From an uncultured Alphaproteobacteria bacterium (GTDB taxonomy: Bacteria > Pseudomonadota > Alphaproteobacteria > CAAGCB01 > CAG-977), in the NCBI GenBank assembly GCA_944393745.1, contig CALYBD010000008.1, positions 1-64,000 on the forward strand: a DNA stretch of 64,000 nt, written 5' to 3'. Of this stretch, positions 3,051 through 63,564 are shown piece after piece (within the stretch, counting starts at the first letter, position 1; each line of letters begins with the position of its first letter). Made by a program: the position numbers and the translations under genes. A model generated the notes under the pieces. That model saw only the letters and a program-made list of their open reading frames with translations, was not told the origin of the DNA and made no database searches.

Positions 3051-3067
3051 GGTGGTTAGATATCTCC

Positions 3068-44038: not shown

Positions 44039-45430
44039 ATGGACAAGGACACCTTGTTGAAAGGCGAAAGCAAAACGCTTGAATTTAAGGCGGCTCTTTC
44101 GGATTCTTACCTGAAAACCGTTGTGGCGTTTGCCAATACGGACGGCGGACGATTAGTGTTCGGTATCGACGACAAAACACGCAAGATTGTCGGCGTAGAT
44201 AAAGACGAAGTTTTCAAAATAATGGATTCTATCGCCAATGCTGTTTCCGACGCCTGCCAACCGAAAATCATTCCCGACATCGCTTTTGAAACAATAGAGG
44301 ATAAAACGGTTGTTACGGTTGACATCGCGGCGGGGTTCAACCGTCCCTATATGCTGAAAAGCGGCGGATTGGACAAAGGCGTTTATGTCCGTTCCGGCGC
44401 GACTTCCAGACCGGCGGATTTGGAACAAATACGGGAAATGATGTTGGACGGTTCCAATCAATCCTGGGACGAGCAGATTTGTCGGGACTATACGCTGACC
44501 GACCGAGCCGTTAAAAGGCTTTGCACCGACATCAACAAATACAGAGCTGAAAAAGACGGAAAGAAAGCCCCGAAAGCGACAAAAGAAAGTTTGATCGGTT
44601 GGGGCGTGTTGAAACAGGACGGTGCTGAAATCCTGCCGACAAACGCTTTCGCTTTACTGGCGGACAATCCGTTCAGACAGGCTAAAATCCAATGCGCCGT
44701 TTTCAAGGGAACGGACAAGGTTTTCTTTCTTGACCGCAAAGAATACGAGGGATCGCTTTATAACTTGCTTGAAGACGCTTACCAGTATGTTTTGCGGAAT
44801 ATCAGAATGGGCGCAATCATCGAGGGATTGATCCGGCAGGACAAATTCGAACTTCCGCCCGCCGCCATTCGGGAAATGATTTGTAACGCGATTTGTCATC
44901 GCTCCTATATGGACGAAGGTATGATTCAAGTATCCGTGTTTGACGACCGGTTGGAAGTTTCCTCTCCGGGGGCGTTGTGCCGGGGCTTAACGCTGAAAGA
45001 CGCGCTGAAAGGACGGTCGAAGCCGAGGAACAAAGTGATTGCCGATGTGTTCAGTCGTATGGGGATCATCGAAAAGTGGGGAACGGGACTTCAAAGAATC
45101 GTGGATTTAGCCAAGCAAGAGGGATTGAAAGAGCCGGTTTTTGAGAACAATGATTCTTTCTTTCGCGCGATTTTGTATCGGGGAAAAGAAGAAACTACCT
45201 CAAAAACTACCGCAAAAACTACCGCAAAAACTACCGCAAAAACTACCGCAATTATTTTAGACGCTCTTTCGGACAATCCGAATATCACGTTAAAGGAATT
45301 AGCCTCTATGACAGGACTATCAGTTGATGGTGTGCGTTGGAATCTGTCAAAGCTGAAAGAGGAAAACAAGATAGAACGTATTGGCGGTAACAGAAGCGGT
45401 CATTGGGTTGTAAAAGACAAAGGGGAGTAA
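44039..45430 (+). CDS. AlbA/Schlafen-type ATP-binding protein with C-terminal winged helix
   Basis: A 463-residue protein: N-terminal AlbA_2 (Schlafen-like) domain (ESKTLEFKAALS..VVAFANTDGGRLVFGI..GVYVRSGATSRPAD), then a HATPase-like region (EKWGTGLQRIVDLA), a KTTA-repeat linker (about residues 389-404) and a winged-helix end (ITLKELASMTGLSVDGVRWNLSKLKEENKIERIG). Such proteins are transcription regulators or RNA-acting defence factors. Four exact 12-bp repeats (45203-45250) encode the linker; gain or loss stays in frame and changes linker length. GGAAG precedes the start. It converges with the next gene. Confidence 0.75.
   Translation: MDKDTLLKGESKTLEFKAALSDSYLKTVVAFANTDGGRLVFGIDDKTRKIVGVDKDEVFKIMDSIANAVSDACQPKIIPDIAFETIEDKTVVTVDIAAGFNRPYMLKSGGLDKGVYVRSGATSRPADLEQIREMMLDGSNQSWDEQICRDYTLTDRAVKRLCTDINKYRAEKDGKKAPKATKESLIGWGVLKQDGAEILPTNAFALLADNPFRQAKIQCAVFKGTDKVFFLDRKEYEGSLYNLLEDAYQYVLRNIRMGAIIEGLIRQDKFELPPAAIREMICNAICHRSYMDEGMIQVSVFDDRLEVSSPGALCRGLTLKDALKGRSKPRNKVIADVFSRMGIIEKWGTGLQRIVDLAKQEGLKEPVFENNDSFFRAILYRGKEETTSKTTAKTTAKTTAKTTAIILDALSDNPNITLKELASMTGLSVDGVRWNLSKLKEENKIERIGGNRSGHWVVKDKGE
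45203..45250 (+). repeat. Four tandem 12-bp repeats encoding KTTA
   Basis: AAAACTACCGCA occurs four times without change, preceded by a degenerate fifth copy. They encode a Lys-Thr-Thr-Ala linker between two domains of the AlbA-type protein. Confidence 0.9.
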
Positions 45431-46369: not shown

Positions 46370-46705
46370 ATGCTACGCGGAACAGAAACGCGCGGCGCAA
46401 TTTGCGCTATCACTTTAAGAATCACCCTTGTCGCAGTTTTAACAATGAGCCTGCCGTCCATCGCGAACGCCGCGATGCCGATGCTCAATTCAAACCCGTT
46501 CACACAAGCCCAAACGGCAATTCAGACGCTTATCGAAAACGCCATTACGCTTGGCAAGTGGCTCGCGATGGCAAGTATGGTCGTCTGCTTTTTAGCCTCG
46601 ACGACAGGACGGTTTAATAAGGAGGCTTGTATCAAAGTCGGCTTGATTATGGCGGCTTTTTCGGGCTTGGGTTGGATCGTCGAACTGTTTATGGGGTCGG
46701 TATGA
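46370..46705 (+). CDS. virB2: VirB2/TrbC-like conjugative pilin
   Basis: A 111-residue pilin precursor: long signal peptide ending PSIANA, then two membrane segments (LAMASMVVCFLAS and VGLIMAAFSGLGWIVELFMG) around a short polar turn. This is the VirB2 layout. GGGAGC precedes the ATG. First gene of the secretion operon; the next gene starts in its stop (ATGA overlap). Confidence 0.8.
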   Translation: MLRGTETRGAICAITLRITLVAVLTMSLPSIANAAMPMLNSNPFTQAQTAIQTLIENAITLGKWLAMASMVVCFLASTTGRFNKEACIKVGLIMAAFSGLGWIVELFMGSV

Positions 46706-47019
46706 GGTCTTCACGGATTTACGGTTCGGTTCTCAAACCGCCCAGACTTTTATTCGCGGCGACAAGCCTGCTTTATCTGGAAGTGTTCGGCGCGATCGTT
46801 TTAACGGTTCTTGTCAGAGAGCCGGTTATGACGGTTGTTTCTCTGACGCTTTCCCACTTGTTTTGTATTCATCTGACGAACAAAGAGCCGCACATCAACA
46901 ACATTTTACGGAACTTCTATCTTCGGGCGCGGGAATACGCCGGTATCAAATCGGACGAACAGCCGCGCTTTAAGACGGAAAGCCTGTTTAAGAACGCGGG
47001 GGTAATCTATGAATTATGA
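46702..47019 (+). CDS. virB3: VirB3-like T4SS membrane protein
   Basis: A 105-residue protein with two close membrane segments (LLFAATSLLYLEVFGAIVLTVL and TVVSLTLSHLFCIHL), and the VirB3 phrase LKPPRLLFA. It overlaps virB2 by 4 bp and virB4 by 11 bp. It helps assemble the pilus with VirB4. Confidence 0.8.
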   Translation: MRSSRIYGSVLKPPRLLFAATSLLYLEVFGAIVLTVLVREPVMTVVSLTLSHLFCIHLTNKEPHINNILRNFYLRAREYAGIKSDEQPRFKTESLFKNAGVIYEL

Positions 47020-49342
47020 GTTTTTGCTTCCGCTGATCGGCGCGGGCGTCGCCGCAGCCTGGACATACGGGAAAAGCGTTCCAGAATCCAAAGCCGAAAA
47101 ACTGACCTTTGTTGAAGACGAAGTGCCGTTGACCGGAATTAAAGACGACGACGTTGTTCTGACGCAGACGGGACAAGTGTTCAAGGTTGTCGCCTTGTCC
47201 GGCCAAAGCGTCGCGGGCAAGCGGGCGGACGATTTGGAAAAGGCGGCTTCGGCAAGGGTGTTGTTTTTCCGGCGTGTTTCCGAAAGCAAGGTTCATCTTC
47301 GCATTATCAGTCAGAAGACGTTGACGCCCGTTTCCAAAAAGCCGCCGTGCGGTAATCCGTTTCTGGACGCGTTGGTCAAACGGTGGGAAAGCGGGCTTGA
47401 AACATCGTTCAAGACAAGGCACTACATCATTGTTTCTTCAACCTCCGAGAACGAAGTCGATGCCGTCGTTCGGGAAATCTTCATCGCTCTTTCGGATTTG
47501 GAGCCGGTCGTTCTGACGAAAAGCGGCAAGGACGGCGTTTCCCCGCTGCTCACATTCCTGTCGTCTTTCTACAATGCGGAGGAAATCCCCGTTTCCGACA
47601 AGGAAAAGAACATTCACCGCATTGAACGGTCGAGAATCAAGATCGACCGGAACGGATTGATTACGCAGACGCGCGGCGCGGCGGACACATTCCGTCTGAC
47701 GTTCGGAATAAAGGACTTCGGAGAAAGCGTTACACAAAAGATAATGGACGGTCTTTTGGCGTTGCCTTATCCTATAACGGTTTCCGTTCACGCCGTCCCC
47801 GTCGCGAAAAGCGCGGCGTTGTCAAATCTGGACAAGCGCAAATCTCAAATGAACCTGGGGAAAAAGGAGTTCAATTCTCTGACGAACGAAGAAATCCGCG
47901 AATTGAGGGATATTGTCGAAAGCGGCAAGGAATCTCTGGTTCAGACGGAGTTTGGCATTTTCCTGAACTTGTCCGACAAGGCCAAAATTCAGACAGCCGT
48001 TCAGGACGTTTACGGGGTATTGGGAAAATACGGCGTCCGTCCCGTGTTGGAGGAACAACTCGTTTTGCCGAAGTTTTGGGGACAGGCTCCGGGACGGGAT
48101 TACTTCAACCGCGAACTGTTGCTGACTTCGGAAAACCTTGCGGACTTATGCCCGATGACGAAAGCCGAAACGGGGATCAACCGGTGCGACTGGGGCGACC
48201 GTCCGGTCTGCTATTTTCCGAGCGTTCCGTCCGGCAATCCGTTCGGGTTCACGTTCCACGCGACGGCGGAGGATCAGGCTCCGCCCCATTGTGTCGTGTT
48301 CGCGCCGACCGGAAGCGGCAAGACGGTGTTGATCCTTCATTTGGTCGGTCAGGCTTTGGCGGCTTATCCAGATTTATCGGTGTTTATGCTCGACCGCGAC
48401 AACGGCGTTACGGTGTTCACGGACTTGGTCGGCGGAACGTATCATCAAATCAGTCAGAACGGGGAAATCAGCCTGAATCCGTTTGATTGCGGGCCGGGAG
48501 AAGAAACGACGCTGAATCTGTTTATGCAAATCCTGACGAACGCGGAAACGGAGGAAGAAAAGAAAGACATTCGGATATTCGTGTCCGAGATGATGAAACA
48601 GCCCCGCTTCAACAGACGCATGGATTGGTATGCGAACGAATTGGCTCCGCACGGACGGTTCAGGGAAAAGTTGGAAAAGTGGATCAAGGGCGACACGTTG
48701 AACGCCAAACTGTTCAACGGGAACAGGGACACGCTTGACGTTTCAAAGAAACGGTTAAACGTGTTCGGCCTGGATAACGTCAAAGACGACGCGAACGCGG
48801 CGGCGGCGTTGTTCTTCTATTTGTTCAAAAAAATTGAAAAGAACGCGCAGAGCGGCAGGCCGTCTTTGCTGATCGTCGATGAGGCTCCAACGCTTCTTTC
48901 TTCTCAACCTCTGAAATCGGAAATCGAAAAACTGCTTAAAACCGCAAGAAAGCAAAGAATGGCGATTTTTATGGCGTTTCAGGGAACGAACGATTTGAAG
49001 ACGCTGAATATCAAGGAAACGATTTTAACGAACTGCCACACGCGGTTCTTCTACGACGGTTGTGCCGGAACGCCGGAGGAAATCGACGGGTTCAACCTGA
49101 CGGAAAGCGAAACAGACTTCGTGCTGACGAAAGGCGCGAAGATCGAGGGCGCAAAACGTCCCGTTTTGATGCAGAGAAACGGTGTCAACGTGTTTCTGGA
49201 AACGGATATGAGTTGCCTCGGCAACTATCTGAACGCCTTTAAGGGCGGCGCGAAAGCCGTCCGGTTCCTCGATTACGCCAAATTGTTCAAACCGGAGGAT
49301 CCGGCGGCTTACTACCTCAAACATTATGGAGCGAACCGATGA
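47009..49342 (+). CDS. virB4: VirB4 ATPase
   Basis: A 777-residue ATPase of the type IV secretion system. Walker A APTGSGKTVLILH (Lys438), Walker B-like LLIVDEAP, and the late AIFMAFQGTND. The N-terminal part has an inner-membrane segment (LIGAGVAAAWTYGK) and is otherwise long as in VirB4. It powers pilus assembly and substrate transfer. Overlaps virB5 by 4 bp. Confidence 0.93.
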   Translation: MNYEFLLPLIGAGVAAAWTYGKSVPESKAEKLTFVEDEVPLTGIKDDDVVLTQTGQVFKVVALSGQSVAGKRADDLEKAASARVLFFRRVSESKVHLRIISQKTLTPVSKKPPCGNPFLDALVKRWESGLETSFKTRHYIIVSSTSENEVDAVVREIFIALSDLEPVVLTKSGKDGVSPLLTFLSSFYNAEEIPVSDKEKNIHRIERSRIKIDRNGLITQTRGAADTFRLTFGIKDFGESVTQKIMDGLLALPYPITVSVHAVPVAKSAALSNLDKRKSQMNLGKKEFNSLTNEEIRELRDIVESGKESLVQTEFGIFLNLSDKAKIQTAVQDVYGVLGKYGVRPVLEEQLVLPKFWGQAPGRDYFNRELLLTSENLADLCPMTKAETGINRCDWGDRPVCYFPSVPSGNPFGFTFHATAEDQAPPHCVVFAPTGSGKTVLILHLVGQALAAYPDLSVFMLDRDNGVTVFTDLVGGTYHQISQNGEISLNPFDCGPGEETTLNLFMQILTNAETEEEKKDIRIFVSEMMKQPRFNRRMDWYANELAPHGRFREKLEKWIKGDTLNAKLFNGNRDTLDVSKKRLNVFGLDNVKDDANAAAALFFYLFKKIEKNAQSGRPSLLIVDEAPTLLSSQPLKSEIEKLLKTARKQRMAIFMAFQGTNDLKTLNIKETILTNCHTRFFYDGCAGTPEEIDGFNLTESETDFVLTKGAKIEGAKRPVLMQRNGVNVFLETDMSCLGNYLNAFKGGAKAVRFLDYAKLFKPEDPAAYYLKHYGANR

Positions 49343-50124
49343 AAAAGATACTGTTCTTCCTTTTATTCTTCGCCCGCACGGCAAGTGCTCAAATGGCGGT
49401 CATCGACACGAACGGCTTGGCGGAAAGCATTAAGCAGAACGCGACTATGGCGGCGATTTTGGAAAACGGCAAAGCGATTTGGGACACGACGAAAGAGGGT
49501 TTGGAAGCGACAAAACAGATCACGGACACGGTCGGCGGTGCCGTTTCCCTTGCTTTGACGGCGCAGAGTTTCATCACGAACGCCAATCAGTTGCTTCAAT
49601 GCGTTACGCCGCAGTTCCTTTTGGACGGTATGAATTTTGAAGTAACAAACATCTGCACGGCGCAGGACTACATCCGTCAGGCGTTGGATTTGCCGACGAA
49701 TGAGGACGTTCAAGGCGCGATGAACACGGTTTCCGGTGTGGCGGGGGGCAGTTATTCCTGGCGGGGCGTTACGACGGGGAACAACCGGACGAAACAACAA
49801 TGGCGGAAAGTCAAGAAAGCCCGAACTGACTTTCATAAGAAAAGCGTGGACGACGGTTTGGCGAACGCTATGGCGGTCAAAGCGGAAGCGAACACGCTGA
49901 CGAAAGCGGCAAGCTCGATCATTCAGGACACGAACACGTCTTTGACGGTTATGGAAAAGTTGTCGCAGACGAACAGGGCTTTGGCGGACATTCACGCCGC
50001 GCTTGTTCAACAAAACATTCTGATCGCGAACATTCTGCAAGTCATTGCCTCGAAAGAGAAACTGATCGAGGGGACGATTGCGTTTGACGCGGCTTTGACA
50101 CAAACGGAGGAGAAAAAGAAATGA
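49339..50124 (+). CDS. virB5: VirB5-like pilus-tip protein
   Basis: A 261-residue exported protein: signal peptide FFLLFFARTASA, then a helical body with QQNILIANILQVIASKEK near the C-terminus and two Cys. Length and operon position match VirB5, the minor pilin. It begins 4 bp into virB4's end. Confidence 0.7.
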   Translation: MKKILFFLLFFARTASAQMAVIDTNGLAESIKQNATMAAILENGKAIWDTTKEGLEATKQITDTVGGAVSLALTAQSFITNANQLLQCVTPQFLLDGMNFEVTNICTAQDYIRQALDLPTNEDVQGAMNTVSGVAGGSYSWRGVTTGNNRTKQQWRKVKKARTDFHKKSVDDGLANAMAVKAEANTLTKAASSIIQDTNTSLTVMEKLSQTNRALADIHAALVQQNILIANILQVIASKEKLIEGTIAFDAALTQTEEKKK

Positions 50125-50273
50125 GGAAATTGACGATTTTGGCTTTGTTGACGGTTTTGACGGCGTGTTCCACGTCGCAAAACGTCAAAGGGATCGGCGC
50201 GGGAACGGACAGCTATAAATTGAGCCCCTGCGCCTGTCAGATCATCGCTCAACCGAATTACGGCAGGGGGTAA
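50121..50273 (+). CDS. virB7: VirB7-like small lipoprotein
   Basis: A 50-residue lipoprotein with a signal peptide and lipobox LTAC (TILALLTVLTACSTS), then a short polar tail with two further Cys (SPCACQIIAQP). VirB7 in T-DNA systems is a lipoprotein of similar size that disulfide-bonds to VirB9. It overlaps virB5 by 4 bp. Confidence 0.7.
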   Translation: MRKLTILALLTVLTACSTSQNVKGIGAGTDSYKLSPCACQIIAQPNYGRG

Positions 50274-50275
50274 AA

Positions 50276-50458
50276 ATGGGAACGAAAGCATCGAAAATCA
50301 AGCAGAAATACTTGGATTTGGCGCGTGTCGAGGCGTTGCGGGTCAAGTTGGAGGAGAAACTGCCGCCGGACAGCGGATTGCGCTTGGACGTGATGATCGC
50401 GCTGTCCATTTTGTCGGAATGTTTCAAATACGGCTTTGTTGAAAGGGTGGACGAATGA
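50276..50458 (+). CDS. Small hypothetical T4SS-operon protein
   Basis: A 60-residue, charged protein (KASKIKQKYLDLARVEALRVKLEEK) with a likely single helix. AGGGGG is 5 bp upstream of the ATG. It overlaps virB8 by 4 bp. Function unknown. Confidence 0.6.
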   Translation: MGTKASKIKQKYLDLARVEALRVKLEEKLPPDSGLRLDVMIALSILSECFKYGFVERVDE

Positions 50459-51165
50459 GCGAAAACGAAGAAGTGTTAAAGAACGTGCCGCCGACGGTCG
50501 AACAGCCTGAAACGACGGATTTGGGATATTTGCGGCGTTTGGAAAAGTCGGTCGCGTTGCTCTCGAAAATCGCGGCGGTCAGCGTTTTTTCGGTGGTCGG
50601 GAGCTTTTGCGTCGTCCTGGCGTTGTTCCCTTTGAAGAAGACGGAAACGGTTTTCGTGTCGATGAAAGACGGACAACAAATGGTTCGTTTGCTGCCGCAG
50701 GAAATCGACCGGACGACAAAGGAGGAATATCTCCGCTCCGTTCTATTCGATTACATCAGAAAACGGGAAACGATCAATTTTGTTGACGAGGGAGAACGGT
50801 TCGCGTGGGTTCAGGCGTTCACGCACCCTCAATGGTTCAAACTGTTCGCGGAACATATGAACTCGAGCAATCCCGACAGTCCGCTTGTGTATTACGCGAA
50901 GAACGAACTGACGCGGGACGTTTACGTTCAATCATTGGAATCGATCCCCGGCACGGATCACGTTTGGCGTGCGGAATATATCGCGACCGACCGGAAAAGC
51001 GGTCAGCCGGTCAGGACAAAGAGTTTTGTGGCGACATTCAAAGCCTATACGGCGGCGGTTCAGACGGACAGGACGAAAGCGAGCCAGAATCCGTTTGGTT
51101 TGATTGTTGAAAACTATGCCGTTGCCGCCAAAGGGCGACCGAACGATAAGGATAACAGTTTATGA
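50455..51165 (+). CDS. virB8: VirB8-like inner-membrane protein
   Basis: A 236-residue protein with one membrane segment near residues 38-60 (AAVSVFSVVGSFCVVLALFPL), a periplasmic domain with VSMKDGQQMV at its start, typical of VirB8/TrbF. It organises the core complex. Overlaps neighbours on both sides by 4 bp. Confidence 0.85.
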   Translation: MSENEEVLKNVPPTVEQPETTDLGYLRRLEKSVALLSKIAAVSVFSVVGSFCVVLALFPLKKTETVFVSMKDGQQMVRLLPQEIDRTTKEEYLRSVLFDYIRKRETINFVDEGERFAWVQAFTHPQWFKLFAEHMNSSNPDSPLVYYAKNELTRDVYVQSLESIPGTDHVWRAEYIATDRKSGQPVRTKSFVATFKAYTAAVQTDRTKASQNPFGLIVENYAVAAKGRPNDKDNSL

Positions 51166-52205
51166 GAAGAAGATATTTTATAATGGCGATGATGATGTTG
51201 CCGTTGATAAACGGCATTAGCTTTGCGGCTCCCGTTTCTCCGTTGAAACCCGTTCCGTTGCCGATGAAACCGGTCGTTCGACAAGACGACGCTTCCGCGT
51301 CGGAAAAGGTGTCCGCGCCTGTGGCGGCACCGGTTCCGGCCGTGGAAGTGAAACCGCTTGCGACGGAAAAGAAAGACGAAGCGGATTTGCTTAAAAACAT
51401 AGACGCGGTTTTGTCGGGCAAGTTCGACAAGGCGGCGGAATATCGTCCGCCGTTGCCGTTGACGCAAAAGGCCTGGAGCCGTCAGAAGACGGAAACGAGA
51501 GCCGGAAACAAGGTGTTTGTCTGGGGACGCGGACGAACGTTCAAAGTGATTTTGCGCGAGGGAATGGGAACGGTGTTCAAACTGCCCGATTGGGACAGCC
51601 TCGACCAGTCCGTTTTATCGGACAGCGTGAACTTCCGGCAAAAGGAGATGAACAACGCATCTATGCTGTATGTGGAGGCTTTGTCAGCCGGTGCCGATAC
51701 GAGCCTGTCTTTGATCGGCAAAAGCGGAAACATTTACAACTTTTATCTGGCGAGCGAGAGCGTCTTTTCCGACAACATAAGCGATCAGGTCGTTTATGTG
51801 GACGCGGCGATGCCGAGCGTCAAGAACTTCTTTGACACGGAGGGCGACTTAAAGCGCAAGGAAAGCGTCGATACCTTTGAAAAGCTGACGAAGAACGAAA
51901 AGAAGACGTGGCTGAACGAACTGAAATTCAATCCGACGAAAATCCGGCACGACGTTGAAATGCGCGGAAGCAAGGAACTTGCGCCCGTTTTGGTGTTCCG
52001 CGACGAGCGTTTCACATATCTGGATTACGGCTATGACAGCGACAGCCGCGTGTGGCCGGTCGCGTATCAGGTCGTTGATCGTGTGGATCAGCCGGTCAAT
52101 ATGCGGAAATCTCCGGACGGCAGATATATGGTTGTTGAAACGATCAATCCGATCACCCTGCGTTATGGGGAGAAAACGGTATGCTTAAAAAGACGTTCGG
52201 ATTGA
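51162..52205 (+). CDS. virB9: VirB9/TrbG-like outer-membrane core protein
   Basis: A 347-residue protein: signal peptide MMMLPLINGISFA, a Pro-rich linker, then the VirB9 C-terminal beta domain ending SPDGRYMVVETINPITLRYGEKT, which matches the family. It forms the outer-membrane ring with VirB7 and VirB10. It has a 25-bp overlap with virB10. Confidence 0.85.
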   Translation: MRRRYFIMAMMMLPLINGISFAAPVSPLKPVPLPMKPVVRQDDASASEKVSAPVAAPVPAVEVKPLATEKKDEADLLKNIDAVLSGKFDKAAEYRPPLPLTQKAWSRQKTETRAGNKVFVWGRGRTFKVILREGMGTVFKLPDWDSLDQSVLSDSVNFRQKEMNNASMLYVEALSAGADTSLSLIGKSGNIYNFYLASESVFSDNISDQVVYVDAAMPSVKNFFDTEGDLKRKESVDTFEKLTKNEKKTWLNELKFNPTKIRHDVEMRGSKELAPVLVFRDERFTYLDYGYDSDSRVWPVAYQVVDRVDQPVNMRKSPDGRYMVVETINPITLRYGEKTVCLKRRSD

Positions 52206-53275
52206 TTTTGGCGGGAGGAATACTCGCCTCGCAAACGGCTTGCGAACAGAAGGATAATCCGCCGCCGTCGGAAACCGTGCCGATCACGGCGGATTATCCT
52301 GCCGACTACTTTGTCGTTTTGCCCGAACCGCCGAAGCCGCCTGAACCGGTCATACAGACTGTTTACGTTCAAAAGGAAATCGAAAAACAAGCGGAAAAAC
52401 TGGCGGAGGAAAAAGCTCAAAAACTGATTGAACGGGAACGGAAGAAAGCCGTCGTTCAAGCCCGTGAAAGCGAACGCCGTCAGGAAATCAAAAAAGAGGC
52501 GGAGAAGAAACAGGACTATCGGGAATACGTCAAACAGCGTTCGGAACTGATCCGCGTTTTACGGCGGCAGGCGGGCGGCTCCTTTTTGACAAGGGGCGGC
52601 GCGCCGGAACAAAAACAGCCGCTTGAAGCAAAGGTTTCCGTTCAGGTGTCGATGAAAGACAAGTCTTATGCGGCACCAATGGTTTTAAGCTCTTATCCGG
52701 TGGACAGATCGTTCATCTTGACGGAAGACAGGACGATCTCCGCCGTTTTGTTGGACGGAATCAACAGTCAGATTCCGGGAAGCGTTCGGGCGATGGTCGC
52801 CGAGGACGTTTTCGGTGCGGACGGTCGGTATAAGCTGCTTGAAAAAGGCGATGTCGTTTTAGGTCGATACGAACCGACAAAGAAAGTCGGCGAAACGCGG
52901 TTGGGCGTGTCTTTTTACCGGATTATCCGTTCTGCCGACGGGGCGGAGATTTACTCTGCGGGGACGGCGTTTGCTTATGCGGCGGATAAAATGGGACGCA
53001 CGGGATTGGTCGGCGACGTGGACAATCGGAACTGGGAACGCTACGGCTTGGCGTTCAGCACTTCCCTTATCGGCGGCATTGCGGGATTGGGCAAAGCGAA
53101 AGTGAACGGCGATGAATACGAGGAGTTTTGGAACCGTCTTTCCGACAACACCACGGAAATCACGACAAAAGTGTTGGAGCAGTATATGAACATCGCCCCG
53201 GTCATCACGATTGCGCAGGGCGAACCGATTTTAATCCGCTTGGCGAGCGACATCACATTGAAGCGGGAGCGTTGA
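52181..53275 (+). CDS. virB10: VirB10/TrbI-like channel protein
   Basis: A 364-residue protein with a Pro/Glu/Lys-rich linker, a coiled-coil stretch (QAEKLAEEKAQKLIERERKKAV) and the VirB10 beta-barrel domain (PGSVRAMVAEDVFGADGRYKLLEKGDVVLG, YAADKMGRTGLVGDVDN). The N-terminus FGLILAGGILASQTACEQ looks like a lipoprotein signal with Cys21, where VirB10 normally has a cytoplasmic tail plus a membrane segment. If the Cys is lipidated, the membrane anchor differs from the usual one. Confidence 0.8.
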   Translation: MLKKTFGLILAGGILASQTACEQKDNPPPSETVPITADYPADYFVVLPEPPKPPEPVIQTVYVQKEIEKQAEKLAEEKAQKLIERERKKAVVQARESERRQEIKKEAEKKQDYREYVKQRSELIRVLRRQAGGSFLTRGGAPEQKQPLEAKVSVQVSMKDKSYAAPMVLSSYPVDRSFILTEDRTISAVLLDGINSQIPGSVRAMVAEDVFGADGRYKLLEKGDVVLGRYEPTKKVGETRLGVSFYRIIRSADGAEIYSAGTAFAYAADKMGRTGLVGDVDNRNWERYGLAFSTSLIGGIAGLGKAKVNGDEYEEFWNRLSDNTTEITTKVLEQYMNIAPVITIAQGEPILIRLASDITLKRER

Positions 53276-53418
53276 TGAAGCGGCTGATCGGGCGGTGTTT
53301 TTGGGTAATCGCGATTTACTGTTTTGAACGAAGCGGCGCGGCGGCGTCGGTTTGCCTTGAACCCGACGAAACCCAAACAATCAGGCAACTATGGAGACAG
53401 AGCAATGACGTATTATAG
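53275..53418 (+). CDS. Small secreted protein in the T4SS operon
   Basis: A 47-residue sequence starting in the TGATG stop/start overlap of virB10. Its N-terminus RLIGRCFWVIAIYCFERSGAAA is hydrophobic, like a signal peptide; the rest is short and polar. GGGAG lies upstream. It overlaps the next gene by 14 bp. It may be a small lipoprotein-like or periplasmic helper, but no family is recognised. Confidence 0.5.
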   Translation: MKRLIGRCFWVIAIYCFERSGAAASVCLEPDETQTIRQLWRQSNDVL

Positions 53419-55387
53419 ACGGCGGCAAAAACACAAACGGATAAAATGGATTATCGCTTTGACGGCGGCGGCGATTGCGTTCAGGTGTCTGGCGCAGGAA
53501 GCGGCGCAAACCTTTGACGTACTGATCGCGGCGGAAACGACCGTCGAGAACGGCGGAACGGTCGCGGCGGGATTGACGCCTTTGCAGCCGGAAACGGCGC
53601 TGAACCTGAACGGCGTGGAACTGACGGGATATTTTGAGGATAAAGCCGCCGTGTTCGACGGAGCGCGGAACACGGAAAACGGCAAATCCGTCGGATTGCC
53701 CGAACCGTACAAAGCGGACACCGGCGGCGCGGCTGTTCTGGAACAAAACAAGCTCTTAACCGTCGAGGGCGACAAGGCGAAACTGCTGTCCTTGCTGCCT
53801 TTGCTGTTCAACGCAGAACCAGCCGCCGGAACCGAACGGGAACAAATGCGCCCGTTTATTCCGCCCCTGTCCGAACGCGCCGAACGGGACGATGAGGAAA
53901 CCTACGATTCTTCGGCGATTGCCGTGAACGAACAACAGGACGAGGTCGCCTTTACGCTTGCCGAATGTCCCGTGCGCGTGGATTGGGACAACAATGTCGT
54001 CGTGTATCAAAGCGAAGTCGTCAAGTCGGTCAACGGACAAGAGGTCGAACGGCAGGGCTGTCAGGATTCCGACTTTCCGATTGATATTTTGCGGGCATAT
54101 TCCCTTTGCGCCGACGACGTTGTTTTGGCGGATAAAAAGGCTTTTAAAATGTACAAGCCGTACTTTCTGGACAAGGGCGAGCAAAAGTTCTTAAAAGAAT
54201 GCACCCGCGACGAAGAACAGGCGTTCGACATCAAGGAAAACCTTGACTGCCTGCCGCAAATTGATATGAACGGCAAAAAGGTTTTGGAACAATCGTATTT
54301 GTACTATACGGACGACACCGATCGCGCCGTTACGGTATCCGAGTGTCAAACAAGGGATACGACAAGAACGTTTGATCTGCGCTTTACTTACGATACTTGT
54401 TCAATCCGTGTTGACGGGGAAAAGAACGTCGCCTATCAGCAGGGAAAATATGTTTATGACAAAGACGGAACGACGATTGACGTTACTGCGTGTCAGGACA
54501 GTGATTTGACATATCCGGTTTCAGACGAGTTTTGTTATTATCGGGACAACCTTGCCGCCAAGAAAGCCGTCAGATACGAGCGCAAAAAGGTGAACACCGT
54601 GAGCGGACTGCATTACTTGACTGATTGTCAGCCCGTATCGCAAACCGACATTTTGGAAACGTTTGACGGGTGCGAGGGATTGCACAAAGACGATTTTACG
54701 GCGGGGTTCTCTTACGGATACAGCCGGTATTACTACGTCAACGACAAAAACGCGCGCGTGTATCTGACCAAGTGCGAACCGAACGCTTCGACCTATCAGC
54801 ATCAGGCGGTTATTGAGGATTGGCAGGTTGATTTCGAGAATTTGAATGCGACTTCTTTAATCGCGTATTACATAGATTTGCCCTCGGGACGGGTCAAGAT
54901 ATCGGATGCGGCGGTTACCAAAGACAGCATCGCCGTTCCTTTGGCAAGACAGAGCGAACAAATCGTTAAAACGGACGAATACACGGATGCCGGGTGCTGG
55001 CGGAACTATAAACAGGAACTTTTGGAAACATACCTGTTGCCGAACGGTAAAACGATTGAGAACAGAACGTCCTTGACGGAAACATCGCCCGTTTATATCT
55101 GTCGGGACGAAGAACAGGAAGGAACGGCGAGTTATTGCGCTTACCGTAATTGCTCAGGTTTTTCATGTATATTGTTAGGCAGATACAGAACTTATACGGC
55201 GACATACACAAGAACACTCAGCAATCATAAGGAAACGGGAGCTTCGGTTTGTTCGGCGTGGACACAGACGGCGATCAGTTCGCAAAAGTCGAAAACGTGC
55301 GACAAATCAAGACCGTGCGGTACGTCCTATATTCTTAACGGGACGTGCGTCAATGGACAGGCGGAGCCCGATGAACAGTGCAAGTAA
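53405..55387 (+). CDS. Large secreted Cys-pair repeat protein in the T4SS operon
   Basis: A 660-residue exported protein with a basic N-terminus and signal-like segment (IKWIIALTAAAIAFRCLA). Residues 188-457 contain six tandem modules of about 47 residues, each with two Cys 31 apart (pairs at 188/219, 235/266, 282/314, 332/363, 377/408, 423/457). Modules share short tags such as CQDSD and Tyr-rich turns. The C-terminal 170 residues hold a second Cys-rich part (CAYRNCSGFSCILLG, CSAWTQ, CDKSRPCG). No known family is recognised. Location between virB10 and virB11 suggests a surface or pilus-associated conjugation factor, for example an adhesin. Start has GGAGACAG upstream. Confidence 0.75.
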   Translation: MTYYRRRQKHKRIKWIIALTAAAIAFRCLAQEAAQTFDVLIAAETTVENGGTVAAGLTPLQPETALNLNGVELTGYFEDKAAVFDGARNTENGKSVGLPEPYKADTGGAAVLEQNKLLTVEGDKAKLLSLLPLLFNAEPAAGTEREQMRPFIPPLSERAERDDEETYDSSAIAVNEQQDEVAFTLAECPVRVDWDNNVVVYQSEVVKSVNGQEVERQGCQDSDFPIDILRAYSLCADDVVLADKKAFKMYKPYFLDKGEQKFLKECTRDEEQAFDIKENLDCLPQIDMNGKKVLEQSYLYYTDDTDRAVTVSECQTRDTTRTFDLRFTYDTCSIRVDGEKNVAYQQGKYVYDKDGTTIDVTACQDSDLTYPVSDEFCYYRDNLAAKKAVRYERKKVNTVSGLHYLTDCQPVSQTDILETFDGCEGLHKDDFTAGFSYGYSRYYYVNDKNARVYLTKCEPNASTYQHQAVIEDWQVDFENLNATSLIAYYIDLPSGRVKISDAAVTKDSIAVPLARQSEQIVKTDEYTDAGCWRNYKQELLETYLLPNGKTIENRTSLTETSPVYICRDEEQEGTASYCAYRNCSGFSCILLGRYRTYTATYTRTLSNHKETGASVCSAWTQTAISSQKSKTCDKSRPCGTSYILNGTCVNGQAEPDEQCK

Positions 55388-56315
55388 TGTCGCCTTAAAA
55401 AACGCCTTGCGTCCGTTGGAACCGTATCTGGAACTGACGGGAACGAACGAGGTCATTGTCAATCGGGAAAACGAGGTCGTATTGGAAACGGCTTCCGGTT
55501 GGGAGTTCGTTCCGGATAAAAACATCACGAAAGAGATGTTCCTGTCCGTCGGGCGCATTTTAGCCAACCGCGCCGGAACGGACTTTGACGCGCACCCGTA
55601 TTTGGGGGCGGAGCTGCCGGACGGTCATCGTCTTCATTTGTGTATGGGAACGACGGTTGAAAGCGGGCTTTGCGCCGCCATTCGTCTGAAACGTTCGCGT
55701 AAGCTGACGATCGACAACTTCCTGACGGAAAAATCCTTTGCGCCGAAACCGGAAATGTCGTTCGACTTTGACGACATTCCGAACAGTCTGAAGCGGCTTG
55801 TTTTGGAAAAGCGGAACATTCTGATTTCTGGCGCGACCAGTTCGGGCAAGACGAACCTCTTAAACGTGTTGTTGAAGTATGTGCCTAAAACCGACCGCTT
55901 CCTGACGATGGAAGACGTGCGGGAATTGGACACGAGCCATTTGTTGAACACGGTTCACTTTGTCCTGCCGGACAACGGGGCGGAAACGGAAATCACGCAA
56001 AACGACGTGATCGACGCGATGATGAGGTTGCGTCCCGACCGGATCGCTTGCGGCGAATTGAGAAGCCGGAACACCTGGACGTTGCTTTCCTTGCTGAACA
56101 ACGGACACGGCGGCTGTATGACGACCATTCACGCCGGTTCGCCGCTTCACGCCATCAGCAAGGTCGTTACGAACGCGATGACCGGCGACAAGTGCGTGGA
56201 CAAAGACGTTATGGAAAAGATCGTTCGGGACTGTCTGGATTGCGTCATTCAAATCAAAGTGTCCGAGGGCGAACGCTATATCTCGGATATCGCTTTAAGA
56301 GGGAGGGACTACTGA
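55371..56315 (+). CDS. virB11: VirB11 traffic ATPase
   Basis: A 314-residue hexameric ATPase of the GspE/VirB11 family: Walker A ISGATSSGKTNLLN (Lys160), an Asp box MEDVRELD, and RPDRIACGELRSR (Walker B region), plus MTTIHAGSPLHA. It switches the system between pilus assembly and DNA transfer. Start at 55371 has GGAG before it; a longer form begins at 55353. Overlaps virD4 by 1 bp (TGATG). Confidence 0.92.
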   Translation: MNSASNVALKNALRPLEPYLELTGTNEVIVNRENEVVLETASGWEFVPDKNITKEMFLSVGRILANRAGTDFDAHPYLGAELPDGHRLHLCMGTTVESGLCAAIRLKRSRKLTIDNFLTEKSFAPKPEMSFDFDDIPNSLKRLVLEKRNILISGATSSGKTNLLNVLLKYVPKTDRFLTMEDVRELDTSHLLNTVHFVLPDNGAETEITQNDVIDAMMRLRPDRIACGELRSRNTWTLLSLLNNGHGGCMTTIHAGSPLHAISKVVTNAMTGDKCVDKDVMEKIVRDCLDCVIQIKVSEGERYISDIALRGRDY

Positions 56316-58060
56316 TGACACCTTGGTCTGAAACATCTAAAAAACAGAAACACAGCGTTTATACCGGAATCGGATTGTCCGTCTTATGCGCGGTTTATTG
56401 CCTAATTGTTCGGCGGATCGTTGTCGTGAACGGACAAAGCCGTTTCTTCGATTGTCTGGTCTATACTGTCAAAGTTATTTACGGCGGATCGTTTGACGGG
56501 GTTGACGAAACGGCGTTTGCCGTCGGATTCAGCGGTATTATCCTTTTGCTCCTTGTTATCGGTTGGGGAGCGTTCGCTTTTTTATCGGCGGAAGAAGCCC
56601 CTTATGGCGAAGCGCGGTTCGCGACGGTTTCCGACATCAAGAAAATGGGATTGCTCGATGAGGAAAATTCCTCCGGCATTATCGTCGGCAAATCGGGACA
56701 GCGGCTTTTATCCCCGAACTGTCTGCGGCACGGCATCGCTCTGGCACCGACGCGAAGCGGCAAAACGGCGGGCTTTGTCATTCCGTCCGCTTTGTCGTTC
56801 AAAGGTTCCCTTGTCATCGTCGATCCGAAAGGCGAATTGGAAAAGCTGCTTGCCAAACCGTTGAAGAAAACGGGTAAAACCGTTTACACAATCGACTGGT
56901 CTGACGAATACTCGAAAGATTCTTGGAATCCCTTGTCGTTAAAAGTGTTCCCGTCCGTGTTTTCCTCTTTCGGGGAGGCGGAACGACAGGCGGAGCGTAT
57001 CGCCGCGATGCTTGTCGGGCAAAAGGCGCAAACGGAAGACCATTGGGAAACAAACGCCAAAAAGCATATCGCGGCGTTGATTTTGTTCTCCGTTTATTTG
57101 GGCGAACTGTCGGAACTCCGGCTTGATCCGCGTTATCCCCAAACCATCAAGGACTATAACGATTTCCACGAACCGCATTTGTCAAAGGTCTATCACTTCA
57201 TCGCCAAAGATGTCGATGTCGCAAAACTTCTGACCGGGGACGAAGAAGCGTTGTTGTCCGCAAAGCAAAACCTTGAAGAACTGATTACATACGCCGCCCA
57301 CGTTCACGCGCCCGCCCGCATTTTGAACGACTTGTCGGCTTGGCGGAACGCGCCGGACAATGAAGCAGGATCGCATATGACGACGTTCCTTTCAAAACTT
57401 CAAATCTGGCGCAGTCAGGCGGTCGAGGGCGCGACGCGGAGATGTTCTTTTGAATGGCAGGATTTAAGGGATTCCCCGTGTGCCGTCTTCATCAAATTCC
57501 CGCAAAGAGACGCTCAATCTTTGGGCGTTCTGACGGCGTTGTTCTTTGAAACATTCTTCGGTTGGGCGTTGGATATACCGAGAAAGCCGTTGGAATGTCC
57601 GATTGCCATACTTGCCGACGAGTTCGGAAGCCTGCCTAAAATCAATCTGATGACGGACTTCCTTTCCAAAGGCGCGGGTATGGGCGCGGTCATCTGGATC
57701 ATCGTTCAAGACTTCGCGCAAATCAAGGCGACTTATGGCGACAAAGGCTTCGACACGATCAAAACGAACTGTTCCTATTTGTTGGTTTACGCGCAAAACA
57801 ATTTCAACACGCAAAGGGAACTGTCCCAAATGACGGGAAAGACGACAGCAACGCGACGGAGCCTGTCGCGGTCGAGCAAAGGCGACACGTCCGTTTCCCA
57901 TAACGCCGAGGGGCGCGATTTAATGTCCGTCGCGGATTGGGGAGCCATTCCGTTCGGGCGGCACGTTTTGTTGTGTCAGGGCTTTATGACGCGTCCCGTT
58001 TATTGCGAAACCCCGCTTTACTTCAACGAGAAACGATTTACGGAGAAACTTGATGGCTGA
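56315..58060 (+). CDS. virD4: VirD4 coupling protein
   Basis: A 581-residue type IV coupling protein: two N-terminal membrane segments (IGLSVLCAVYCLIV and FSGIILLLLVIGWGAFAFL), Walker A APTRSGKTAGFVIPS (Lys150), Walker B-like CPIAILADEFGSLPKI, and the phrase WIIVQDFAQIKATYG. It brings the relaxase-DNA complex to the channel. A longer open frame upstream overlaps virB11 and is not real. Overlaps virB6 by 8 bp. Confidence 0.93.
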   Translation: MTPWSETSKKQKHSVYTGIGLSVLCAVYCLIVRRIVVVNGQSRFFDCLVYTVKVIYGGSFDGVDETAFAVGFSGIILLLLVIGWGAFAFLSAEEAPYGEARFATVSDIKKMGLLDEENSSGIIVGKSGQRLLSPNCLRHGIALAPTRSGKTAGFVIPSALSFKGSLVIVDPKGELEKLLAKPLKKTGKTVYTIDWSDEYSKDSWNPLSLKVFPSVFSSFGEAERQAERIAAMLVGQKAQTEDHWETNAKKHIAALILFSVYLGELSELRLDPRYPQTIKDYNDFHEPHLSKVYHFIAKDVDVAKLLTGDEEALLSAKQNLEELITYAAHVHAPARILNDLSAWRNAPDNEAGSHMTTFLSKLQIWRSQAVEGATRRCSFEWQDLRDSPCAVFIKFPQRDAQSLGVLTALFFETFFGWALDIPRKPLECPIAILADEFGSLPKINLMTDFLSKGAGMGAVIWIIVQDFAQIKATYGDKGFDTIKTNCSYLLVYAQNNFNTQRELSQMTGKTTATRRSLSRSSKGDTSVSHNAEGRDLMSVADWGAIPFGRHVLLCQGFMTRPVYCETPLYFNEKRFTEKLDG

Positions 58061-58985
58061 AACGTGCTATTCCTGTCAGATTTTTGACGTGTTCAATCAG
58101 AAAACGCTTTCTTTTTGTCAGGCGTTCTTCGAAGCCGTAACGCCCGAATTGAAGTCGCTTCTGGCCTATCTGTTTTTGCTCTGGATCATTTACCGGCTTT
58201 GTGAATCTCTGATCGGCAGGGAACAAAACATTCAAGGCTTGATAAAAGAGTTCATCGACCTTTCGATTGCGACGGCGTTATTGCAGAGTTTTCAGTATTG
58301 GAGCGGCATCTGCTTCTGGATTTACAATTTCGGAATGGAGTTGGGCATCAGAATCCTGCAAATTACGTCCGAGGGGCAAGCCGTTCTGAAATCCTCCTCC
58401 GGCACGGAGGCCTTGTTGACTTATGTCGAATCCGCTTTTACACCCGTTCTGGACAAGATCGGCGTGATGATGAGCGACGTTTCGTGGACGAGCCTGAAAC
58501 TCGCAATCGCCATTATTCCCGTCGCTGTCATTTATTTCCTGTTACTTTGGCGGATATTCGCAAGCCTGTTCAACGTGTTCGTCCAGTTATTCGCGATCAC
58601 GCTGCTTGCGCCGGTTCTGTGCGCGTTTTACGCCCTGCCGCCGTTCCAACGGGCAAGCTATACGGCGATAAGGATTCTCCTGACGAACAGCCTTCAAATC
58701 GTTCTGTCCTGCGGCACGATCGGCATAATCCTGACTTACCTGAACAGCCTCAATCTGTTCCAGGACAACAACGTCGCCGTAACGGTCGGCACGGTCGGAT
58801 ATATGCAAATGCTCTTTACCGGCGCACTCCTTTGGGGTGCCTACGGCATCATCATCGGCACGCCGTCCCAAATCCTGAACGTCGGGAACGTCAATGACGC
58901 AAATCCCGTCCTGACCTTTATCGGACATCTGCCGAACAAGGCTGTCAATTTTGCAAAAGGGTATATTCCGTTCGGGAAGAAATAA
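58053..58985 (+). CDS. virB6: VirB6/TrbL-like multi-pass channel protein
   Basis: A 310-residue protein with about six hydrophobic segments (for example LLAYLFLLWIIYRLC, IIPVAVIYFLLLWRIF, VQLFAITLLAPVLCAFYAL, YMQMLFTGALLWGAYGIIIG). It matches VirB6/TrbL in length and topology. Its place after virD4, at the operon end, differs from VirB operons where virB6 follows virB5. ATG 58053 is preferred over TTG 58050. Confidence 0.8.
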   Translation: MAETCYSCQIFDVFNQKTLSFCQAFFEAVTPELKSLLAYLFLLWIIYRLCESLIGREQNIQGLIKEFIDLSIATALLQSFQYWSGICFWIYNFGMELGIRILQITSEGQAVLKSSSGTEALLTYVESAFTPVLDKIGVMMSDVSWTSLKLAIAIIPVAVIYFLLLWRIFASLFNVFVQLFAITLLAPVLCAFYALPPFQRASYTAIRILLTNSLQIVLSCGTIGIILTYLNSLNLFQDNNVAVTVGTVGYMQMLFTGALLWGAYGIIIGTPSQILNVGNVNDANPVLTFIGHLPNKAVNFAKGYIPFGKK

Positions 58986-61041: not shown

Positions 61042-63564
61042 TTACTTATAAGCAGGAGAAAACTTTTTCCCATCGTGTAGTGCTCCATAGAAAAATACAG
61101 AACAAGCATCAACATTTAGAGAACGGGTTTGATAGTTTCTTGCAATCTGATAGAATTGTCTATATTCGTTACTTGAAAAGTATAAACATTGTTCTTTTGA
61201 AAGCTTTATTCCGTTCTTTGGAATCAGAATAGCGAGGGAGCCATTTACCAATAGACCTTTAGGTTTTTTCATTACTCTTGGTTTATAAGTCATATTGGGA
61301 GTGATATAGACATCACTACGTTCCAAATAATCGTATACAGACAAGCTTAATGCTGTTGATTTCTTAATGTAAGAATCATAACCATCAATGTTAATGATTT
61401 TAGCACCATCATCACTAATGTTTCTCGATTTCAAAACCCTAATTTCACCACTACAAGACGTATTATTATTTGTAATCTGACGATCTCTAAAAACCGTAAA
61501 ACAATCAAAGTCCATCTTTCGAAAAACAGAATCAAACAACTCATTTCTGTATATTATCCAGTAAGGTAGTTTCTCATCACAGATATATGATTGTTTCTGC
61601 AAAATATCGAAATTATGTGTAACAGATATAACTTTCGTTTTTTCAGGTTTTGCATAAGTATTGACGAACAAAGCTATCGTTTCTATCAAAACACCTGGAA
61701 AACCTTTTTCTCCAAAATCAATAATACACTCTATTCTTTTCTTGGAAAGATAGCTTCTTGACACAGCAAATTCAGGCGTGTTTAAAATGAATTTTGGGAA
61801 AACAATCGCTACATAATCAGCTATCTCTACAGCCTTATCTAAAAAGAAAGAACAGATATTAGTTGTTTCTTTATTTATGGCCGACTCAAGGTATTTTTTT
61901 AGTAATGAGGCATTGTTTTTCATTTTGAAAAATGGTGGATTACCGATGATGAAATCGTATCTTTCTTTAAATTTATGGAGTAGAAAATCGTCTACGATGT
62001 AATTGATATGGCAAGAACCTGGAATCCCGTTCTTTTTCAATAATGCTTTTGCAATTCTTAAACTGTTTGGATCAATGTCAACCAAGTCGATAATTAAATT
62101 TTTTCCCTCGAAACGCTTGAGAATAAGGGGGATAAAATTACCAACACCTGCCGATGGTTCCAATATCCGTATTTCGTCTTTCTCGATATCCGGAAGTGAT
62201 TTAATTATTTCTGTAATTAGAGTCTTATTTGTGTAGAAAGCAGCGTTATCTGTTCGACTTGTATTCGACATTTCTGCGATTCTGCTTAATGCGGAGATGG
62301 AAAGATTCTTCGGGTTTGTCTCAATAAACGCAATTATCTCATCTACACTTTGAAATCTATATTGGTTAACCATCCTGTTGATAGTAGCACTATTTATGGG
62401 GGTGGTATCTAATACAGAACGGATATTAGCCGCAATTTTTTGGAATATGATAGTCGGAACAGCCTCGCCCAATGACTGTCTAATTTTGATTTCTTCTCTT
62501 TTCAAGTATGCCCTTTTTTGTGATTCTGGCAATTCGTTCAGTTGTTCAAGAGATTCATCACTCCACTTGAATGAATCGGGGACGGTCATCATCCGCATAA
62601 GCTCCCGAATACTGAATACTCGATCATCTTCTGGATGAATGGTATTCTGACTTGCTAACTGATCATTTCTTGTGTGAACGCATGGCCCAACTTTGTCCCA
62701 AATTTGTCTGCGGTATTTATCTCCATTCTTCCGTTGATTAAGAACGATTTTCCCATCAATAATTTGGTGCGGCCTTTTTTTCTCATCGGCATTGTCGAAA
62801 GCTGATTCACCTTCTTTCAGATCTGCAATCCACTCTCGCATATATTCTGGATACGCTCTGAAAGAATGGTAAATATCAAGCGGATCTATCTCAGAAAAAT
62901 TTTTCAATCTTTTCATTGCCCCAATAACTTGGCGCAAAGTCTTTTCCGGTTTTGTATCAGGGTAGAGTTCAAACGGAGACACTTCGTCAGAAAACTCCTT
63001 GCTTACACCAATTACAACCGTTCTCGTTCTGCTCGAACAGGCCCCATAATTCTTGAAATTGATAATTCGATAGGCATAAGAATAGTCTGCACTAAGGTTA
63101 TTTTTGATTGCTTCAGCTATAGGCTTGTCTAAACCATCAAGATCGGTACAAACCGTTTTCATAAAAGCCGGAACATTCTCAAATATAAAGAAATTTGGGT
63201 GAATAGCTTTAACAATCTTAATCGATTCTACAACAAGGGAGTTACGAATAATTTCTGTATCAGTTTTTTTGTGATTTGCTACAGACATACCCTGGCAGGG
63301 CGGAGTAGCAATCACAACATCCACTTTTTTGATTTTTTCTTTTGATTTCCAAAAATCAATTTCATCATATAATTGTTTTTTTGTCTCGTCTTTCGTAATA
63401 TCTCCGCAAATATATCCTGTCGAATACTTGCACTTGCCGTTAGACTTTTGGATATCAAGGCGACGTTTAATTATTTCGTTGGTGGCAATGCACTCAAAAC
63501 CCTCCATCTTGAATCCATAGCAACCTATACCAGCACTGCTAAACAAGCTAACATAAGTTTTCAT
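61042..63564 (-). CDS. Fused m5C and m6A DNA methyltransferase
   Basis: An 840-residue protein with two methyltransferase domains. Residues 1-385 are a C5-cytosine enzyme: FSSAGIGCYGFKMEGF (SAM), ATPPCQG with catalytic Cys90, FENV (129-132), SRTRTVVIG and a late VPTIIFQKIAANI. Residues 440-840 are an N6-adenine enzyme: EPSAGVGNFI (469-478) and catalytic NPPFF (542-546). Two different base-methylating domains fit an asymmetric restriction site where each strand needs its own modification. It is followed by an HNH nuclease. AT-rich codon use differs from the neighbouring secretion genes, a sign of recent gain. Confidence 0.85.
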   Translation of the reverse strand: MKTYVSLFSSAGIGCYGFKMEGFECIATNEIIKRRLDIQKSNGKCKYSTGYICGDITKDETKKQLYDEIDFWKSKEKIKKVDVVIATPPCQGMSVANHKKTDTEIIRNSLVVESIKIVKAIHPNFFIFENVPAFMKTVCTDLDGLDKPIAEAIKNNLSADYSYAYRIINFKNYGACSSRTRTVVIGVSKEFSDEVSPFELYPDTKPEKTLRQVIGAMKRLKNFSEIDPLDIYHSFRAYPEYMREWIADLKEGESAFDNADEKKRPHQIIDGKIVLNQRKNGDKYRRQIWDKVGPCVHTRNDQLASQNTIHPEDDRVFSIRELMRMMTVPDSFKWSDESLEQLNELPESQKRAYLKREEIKIRQSLGEAVPTIIFQKIAANIRSVLDTTPINSATINRMVNQYRFQSVDEIIAFIETNPKNLSISALSRIAEMSNTSRTDNAAFYTNKTLITEIIKSLPDIEKDEIRILEPSAGVGNFIPLILKRFEGKNLIIDLVDIDPNSLRIAKALLKKNGIPGSCHINYIVDDFLLHKFKERYDFIIGNPPFFKMKNNASLLKKYLESAINKETTNICSFFLDKAVEIADYVAIVFPKFILNTPEFAVSRSYLSKKRIECIIDFGEKGFPGVLIETIALFVNTYAKPEKTKVISVTHNFDILQKQSYICDEKLPYWIIYRNELFDSVFRKMDFDCFTVFRDRQITNNNTSCSGEIRVLKSRNISDDGAKIINIDGYDSYIKKSTALSLSVYDYLERSDVYITPNMTYKPRVMKKPKGLLVNGSLAILIPKNGIKLSKEQCLYFSSNEYRQFYQIARNYQTRSLNVDACSVFFYGALHDGKKFSPAYK

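Follow-up and report, generated by a model that had tools for sequence, protein, structure and literature searches.

Recipient recognition by VirB-type (MPF_T) conjugation systems is an open question, while F-type systems have TraN. A 2025 review, which counts VirB5, the KikA-Pep proteins and F-type TraN among the proteins that make contact during conjugation, states that VirB5 still lacks an identified specific receptor (PMC12624023). Could an unnamed gene inside a VirB/VirD4 operon code for such a contact protein? The question is raised by a 64,000-nucleotide stretch of DNA from an uncultured alphaproteobacterium, here called the window. The original prediction, made from the sequence, singled out one gene in it (the module gene), whose product (the module protein) was proposed to be a secreted protein of repeated, disulfide-linked modules acting on the cell surface, for example as a mating adhesin or a pilus cap.

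The coordinates given for the open reading frame were correct: positions 53405-55387 of the window (+) translate into 660 residues plus a stop codon. The sequence GGAGAC lies about 10 nt 5' of the start codon, and the start of virB11 (55353 or 55371) falls inside the 3' end of the module gene, giving an overlap of 17-35 nt. The N-terminus, previously described as signal-like, has the look of a Sec signal peptide, in which a hydrophobic stretch after RRRQKHKRIK is followed by a signal peptidase I site of the CLA↓QE type; the relatives described below share an xxA↓Q site. Cys28 occupies position -3, and a lipobox is absent. The parts of the protein and the surrounding operon are listed in Table 1.

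Table 1. Positions in the window of the VirB/VirD4 operon, its genes next to the module gene, and the predicted parts of the module protein.
Feature	Position	Strand	Basis
Whole VirB/VirD4 operon: virB2-like, B3, B4, B5-like, B8, B9, B10, module gene, B11, D4, B6-like	46370..58985	+	Profile matches and operon comparison
virB10 (TrbI), 5' neighbour, 364 aa; N-terminus lipoprotein-signal-like	52181..53275	+	PF03743, E = 3.3e-35
Predicted Sec signal peptide, residues 1-30 (RRRQKHKRIK / WIIALTAAAIAF / RCLA↓QE)	53405..53494	+	Translation; cleavage site shared by relatives
N-terminal domain, residues 35-135; putative anchor on the secretion apparatus	53507..53809	+	Aligned in most relatives
Acidic linker, variable, residues 136-179	53810..53941	+	30-32% identity to C59 and G003 alleles
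Cys module 1, residues 180-226 (C188-C219)	53942..54082	+	Cys pattern
Cys module 2, residues 227-273 (C235-C266)	54083..54223	+	Cys pattern
Cys module 3, residues 274-323 (C282-C314)	54224..54373	+	Cys pattern
Cys module 4, residues 324-368 (C332-C363)	54374..54508	+	Cys pattern; modelled alone as all-beta
Cys module 5, residues 369-414 (C377-C408)	54509..54646	+	Cys pattern
Cys module 6, residues 415-469 (C423-C457)	54647..54811	+	Cys pattern
Cys-less seventh module, residues 470-525 (...DWQVDFENL..TSLIAYYIDLPSGRVKI)	54812..54979	+	Aligns with Cys pair of Nitrosospira/Desulfovibrio relatives
Eighth module, residues 526-570 (C531-C566, spacing 35)	54980..55114	+	Cys pattern
C-terminal Cys-rich tail of variable sequence, residues 571-660; putative tip for binding the recipient	55115..55384	+	Low identity between alleles (68% to L003, where modules have 97%)
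virB11 ATPase, 3' neighbour; overlaps module-gene end	55353..56315	+	TIGR02788, E = 1.6e-56

The first part of the protein has Cys at positions 28, 188, 219, 235, 266, 282, 314, 332, 363, 377, 408, 423 and 457, and the C-terminal part at 531, 566, 578, 583, 588, 616, 632, 638, 648 and 659. The six predicted Cys-pair modules with spacings of 31-34 over residues 188-457 could be reproduced from these positions: the spacings alternate as 31/16/31/16/32/18/31/14/31/15/34, dividing the region into six modules of 45-50 residues, and the repeated CQDSD tag recurs at 219 and 363. In shuffles with the Cys positions held fixed, the summed pairwise module scores were 165 ± 18 (maximum 222 among 300 shuffles), compared with 380 observed, indicating that the repeat goes beyond regularly spaced cysteines. 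The second Cys-rich part expected after the modules is present as a Cys-rich tail. Beyond the original prediction, the array runs on through a Cys-less module (about 470-525) to the pair C531-C566, the family is widespread, and the tail is hypervariable. The Nitrosospira and Desulfovibrio proteins carry a Cys pair 32 apart where the window protein has its Cys-less module, and both Cys at this position are usually either present or absent together across the relatives, with L016 as a deviating case. This pattern is consistent with one putative disulfide within each module. Among 19 relatives, 115 Cys pairs have a mean spacing of 31.9 (range 27-39) and 96 gaps between pairs a mean length of 16.5 (range 13-22). 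All 19 sequences, one of which (L017) has an extra Cys that breaks the count, contain tandem C-x(26-38)-C modules with 13-22 residues between neighbours, and Cys residues are the only invariant columns of their alignment. The smallest number of modules is 4 and the largest at least 10, and the Cys spacing of the eighth module is 34-37 in most alphaproteobacterial relatives.

A full-length AlphaFold prediction, computed from two sequences, yielded no reliable model (mean pLDDT of 29). Module 4 modelled alone was all-beta with a pLDDT of 76, a weak model from a 12-row single-module alignment. Searches with this single-module model by Foldseek and VIA-align yielded no clear structural match (best Z of 3.5, scattered folds), and matches as scattered as these establish neither novelty of the fold nor its membership in a known one.

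In line with the original prediction, in which no family was recognised, searches of Pfam, NCBIfam, PHROGs and PDB sequences with the window protein returned no acceptable match. The best E-values against PDB sequences were 0.056 and 0.5, both to unrelated proteins, and PHROGs gave nothing below E = 0.15. A HalOD1 (PF18545) hit of 22.4 bits stayed below the curated cut-off of 26.3 and appeared in two of six close members, and we regard it as a chance match. No account of the module gene turned up in our literature searches. Relatives, reached by iterating outward from the window protein, are few and share 18-30% identity with it. The window genome, an assembly of 60 contigs, has a second copy of the gene on contig C59 with 74% DNA identity, and further copies occur in three other genomes of the same genus. 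Nine of 385 sampled alphaproteobacterial genomes, its own included, carry relatives (about 2%). They are also found on 13 plasmids, from Roseibium, Thalassospira, Magnetospira, Magnetospirillum gryphiswaldense (pMSR-1), Azospirillum, Nitrosospira and Desulfovibrio, in whose records the gene is labelled "hypothetical protein"; the Azospirillum relative is without the N-terminal domain (N-domain) and most of the tail. Since no relative was found in the viral contigs scanned, there is no sign of a phage origin for the gene.

Two members of the family have unusual architectures. In UBA2903, another genus of the family to which the window organism belongs, a short remnant (L011:2-478, -) joins the N-terminus directly to the tail at a junction near a shared QTET, and it adjoins sequence that precedes virB8 in L003; we considered it as a minimal variant and read it instead as decay from this join and from its position outside a virB operon. 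The Desulfovibrio relative (L030:5406-7769) has at residues ~550-780 a long glycine-rich tail that by eye resembles phage tail-fibre adhesin tips and has no Pfam match.

The gene order around the module gene is nearly constant. It lies between virB10 and virB11, as predicted, and is separate from the VirB5-like gene of the operon (49339-50124); VirB5 is the usual pilus-tip protein. In all seven plasmids first examined, including those of Nitrosospira and Desulfovibrio, the module gene stands exactly between TrbI/VirB10 and VirB11, and three more Roseibium plasmids with an intact copy show the same position, while for a Thalassospira plasmid and a broken Roseibium copy one neighbour is seen at the end of the record. 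The survey of co-occurrence suggested with the prediction placed the gene beside virB10 and/or virB11 in every readable genome locus; the one departure in order is L020, with virB10 upstream and virD4 directly downstream. In 12 genomes of the same family, the five operon copies with the module gene are exactly the places where a close VirB10 occurs, and genomes of this set with only distant VirB10-like proteins have no module gene. We consider it somewhat probable that the family, conserved but without a name, serves one lineage of VirB-type conjugation machinery as an accessory component. The right edge of the window cuts through a relaxase domain (contig positions 63886-64251), so that the window probably carries a conjugative element.

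The VirB10 proteins of these operons deserve a separate remark. In several alphaproteobacterial operons their N-termini look like lipoprotein signals (for example LASQTAC, LLLTGC and TFGGAC) where a cytoplasmic tail and a transmembrane helix are expected (window 52181-53275, L003:6200-7210, L012:401-1498, L016:3306-4655 and L024-L026); the Nitrosospira and Desulfovibrio VirB10 keep the transmembrane helix. Some VirB10 have an extra beta domain, as in L027 with matches to Calx-beta and DUF1573, both just below cut-off. Genomes of the same family also code for giant proteins of about 1975-2684 residues with a VirB10-like domain. One of them (L061:1268-8335, on G002:C28) has dozens of short 'DGTVVDLNGNVIGR' repeats ahead of the VirB10 domain, and similar long open reading frames occur in G001, G003, G007, G009, G010 and G011.

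We compared the module protein with its neighbours in three pairs or groups of elements, on which the variability argument rests. Between the window and G003, a genome of the same genus, the ten other VirB/VirD4 proteins are 92-97% identical (VirB2 95, B3 95, B4 97, B5 97, B8 95, B9 95, B10 93, B11 93, D4 92 and B6 97%), whereas the module protein is 48% identical. Around the start of the module gene DNA identity drops from 83-91% to roughly 50%, and it rises again to 94-99% in virB11, with sharp boundaries at both ends of the gene. The N-domain (33%) is as variable as the tail (30%) in this pair and is thus not a strictly conserved anchor. The opposite pattern was observed between the window and L003, where the N-domain and modules are 97-98% identical, the tail 64-69%, the other genes 66-94% and virB11 94%, meaning that segments of the module gene have been exchanged between elements. 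The tail of L007 is 30% identical to that of the window protein. In Roseibium, RF14 and three other plasmids share 89-98% identity in B4, B8, B9, B10, B11 and D4 and 88-94% in the N-domain, compared with 69% in the modules and 38-39%, with gaps, in the tail. The tail is therefore among the least conserved parts in all three comparisons (G003, L003 and Roseibium). Because the module protein varies while its neighbours are near-identical, it is probably the part in contact with the recipient. Variability of this kind is displayed by surface components facing a variable partner, whose identity the variability alone does not give; by itself it is also compatible with selection by phages, with surface exclusion or with simple exchange of alleles. 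We put a probability of about 0.55 on the module protein being an outer-surface mating (recipient-recognition) adhesin of VirB-type systems, TraN-like in its mode of action, and as such it may choose which recipient cell is met. The original interpretation is supported in part: the repeated modules, secretion and VirB-operon linkage stood, its mating-adhesin reading gains strong but indirect backing from the variability pattern, and a pilus cap would be a hypothetical role.

The strict position beside virB10 and virB11 could also mark a structural T4SS subunit, comparable to CagY of the H. pylori Cag T4SS with its long repeat region. CagY is a precedent for Cys-bearing repeat arrays in a T4SS, and it resembles the module protein in its tandem repeats, regularly placed Cys and variable repeat number (PMC2581425); the conservation of the N-domain in Roseibium would also suit a structural role. 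However, one would expect a structural subunit to change at the pace of its partners, unlike the module protein at 48% against 92-97% for its ten partners, and all three comparisons place its tail with the most divergent parts. The repeats of CagY are moreover alpha-helical and lie within a giant VirB10 homologue, whereas the weak single-module model is all-beta and the window modules belong to a separate gene beside a normal-sized VirB10; a profile scan found no TrbI/VirB10 domain in the module protein. A structural subunit is thus an unlikely explanation.

Replacement of an allele in an otherwise constant operon is also expected of surface-exclusion or self-recognition determinants, whose differing alleles would bar re-entry of the same element, and two different alleles coexist in the window genome (on C8, the window contig, and C59). 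Still, the place of the gene inside the gene order of the machine argues for a donor-side part, and known exclusion proteins such as TraT and TraS are not long repeat rods, so that we judge this explanation distinctly less probable than a structural role. The exclusion function of TraT has been described (PMC11733297). Lower again we place the idea that the protein is a pilus-associated part that phages or other predators use as a receptor on the donor cell, with its variation as the result: the same data from G003 and Roseibium fit, but the strong C-terminal change fits a binding tip equally well. Export as cargo by or with the T4SS, with a function outside the mating apparatus, would agree with the secretion signal and high divergence and is nonetheless very improbable, given a Sec signal unlike cytoplasmic T4SS substrates, the fixed place between core genes across distant classes and the lack of an enzymatic domain in Pfam scans.

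Returning to the mating adhesin, its architecture would recall PilV of R64, a minor pilin of a type IV pilus that has a constant stalk and an exchangeable C-terminal tip recognising recipients. PilV is diversified by a shufflon, in contrast to the module gene, at which we noticed none without a systematic search. In its mode of action it would resemble F-type TraN (PF06986), which is also secreted, large and Cys-rich (about 20 Cys) and coded within the transfer region. In F-type plasmids the range of recipients depends on the variable tip of the TraN variant. TraN alleles have a common base and differ in a region that contacts the recipient (PMC9246713, PMC13104618); the module protein has a variable tail, which may do so. 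Membership in the TraN family was rejected by HMM and hhalign, and the operon is not an F-type (MPF_F) tra operon. With an E-value limit of 1, Pfam scans of the window protein and of eight relatives gave no PF06986 match, the window genome has none either, and hhalign of 19 family members against five TraN proteins gave a probability of 0.15 with 5 aligned columns. The regular 31/16 alternation of Cys is unlike TraN, the most variable region is C-terminal whereas TraN has its variable tip in the N-terminal domain, and the operon is of the VirB type (virB2-B3-B4-B5-B8-B9-B10-X-B11-D4-B6) and not MPF_F. VirB5 and the KikA-Pep accessory adhesins are likewise proposed donor-side contact proteins of VirB-type systems, but VirB5 is a helical pilus-tip protein (PMC12624023) and showed no similarity to the module protein in family scans. 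No homology to characterised adhesins was found by Pfam/NCBIfam scans, hhalign against TraN or the PDB sequence search.

As a mating adhesin, the module protein would be sent to the periplasm by its Sec signal. Each module would fold into a small beta unit held shut by a single disulfide linking its two Cys; the window genome codes for DsbA-family proteins. The modules might stack into a stiff rod whose length follows their number. The N-domain would dock this rod to the T4SS outer-membrane complex with VirB10 and VirB9, as synteny and the conservation in Roseibium suggest, and the hypervariable tail with the last modules would contact the recipient surface and set which recipients bind, in line with the variability. 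Surface location, disulfides and receptor binding are all proposed here from sequence. More tentatively, at slightly under even odds, we propose an undescribed family in Alphaproteobacteria, Nitrosospira and Desulfovibrio that forms a disulfide-stapled rod of beta-modules with an exchangeable receptor-binding tip choosing the recipient species, of an origin independent of TraN. If the family is the VirB-type counterpart of TraN, Cys-rich mating proteins with a variable tip would have evolved more than once, and one could test which recipients an entire lineage of plasmids and integrated elements can reach, with pMSR-1 of the culturable Magnetospirillum gryphiswaldense and the natural allele pairs of Roseibium as entry points.

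Further genes accompany the operon in these elements. Between the T4SS operon and the relaxase, inside the element, the window codes for an 840-residue open reading frame (61042-63564, -) that fuses a C5-cytosine methylase (PF00145) to an N6-adenine-type methylase (Eco57I/N6_Mtase, NPPF motif). In L003, the RUG12246 element, a pair of AAA_21 ATPase and RloB (2413-4301, -), possibly defence cargo, lies between the virB5-like gene and virB8, and G003 and C59 have about 2 kb of extra DNA near the position of this insertion. A Schlafen/AlbA_2 regulator-like open reading frame at 44039-45430 (+) of the window contains a short KTTA tandem repeat (TTSKTTAKTTAKTTAKTTA) ahead of a helix-turn-helix.
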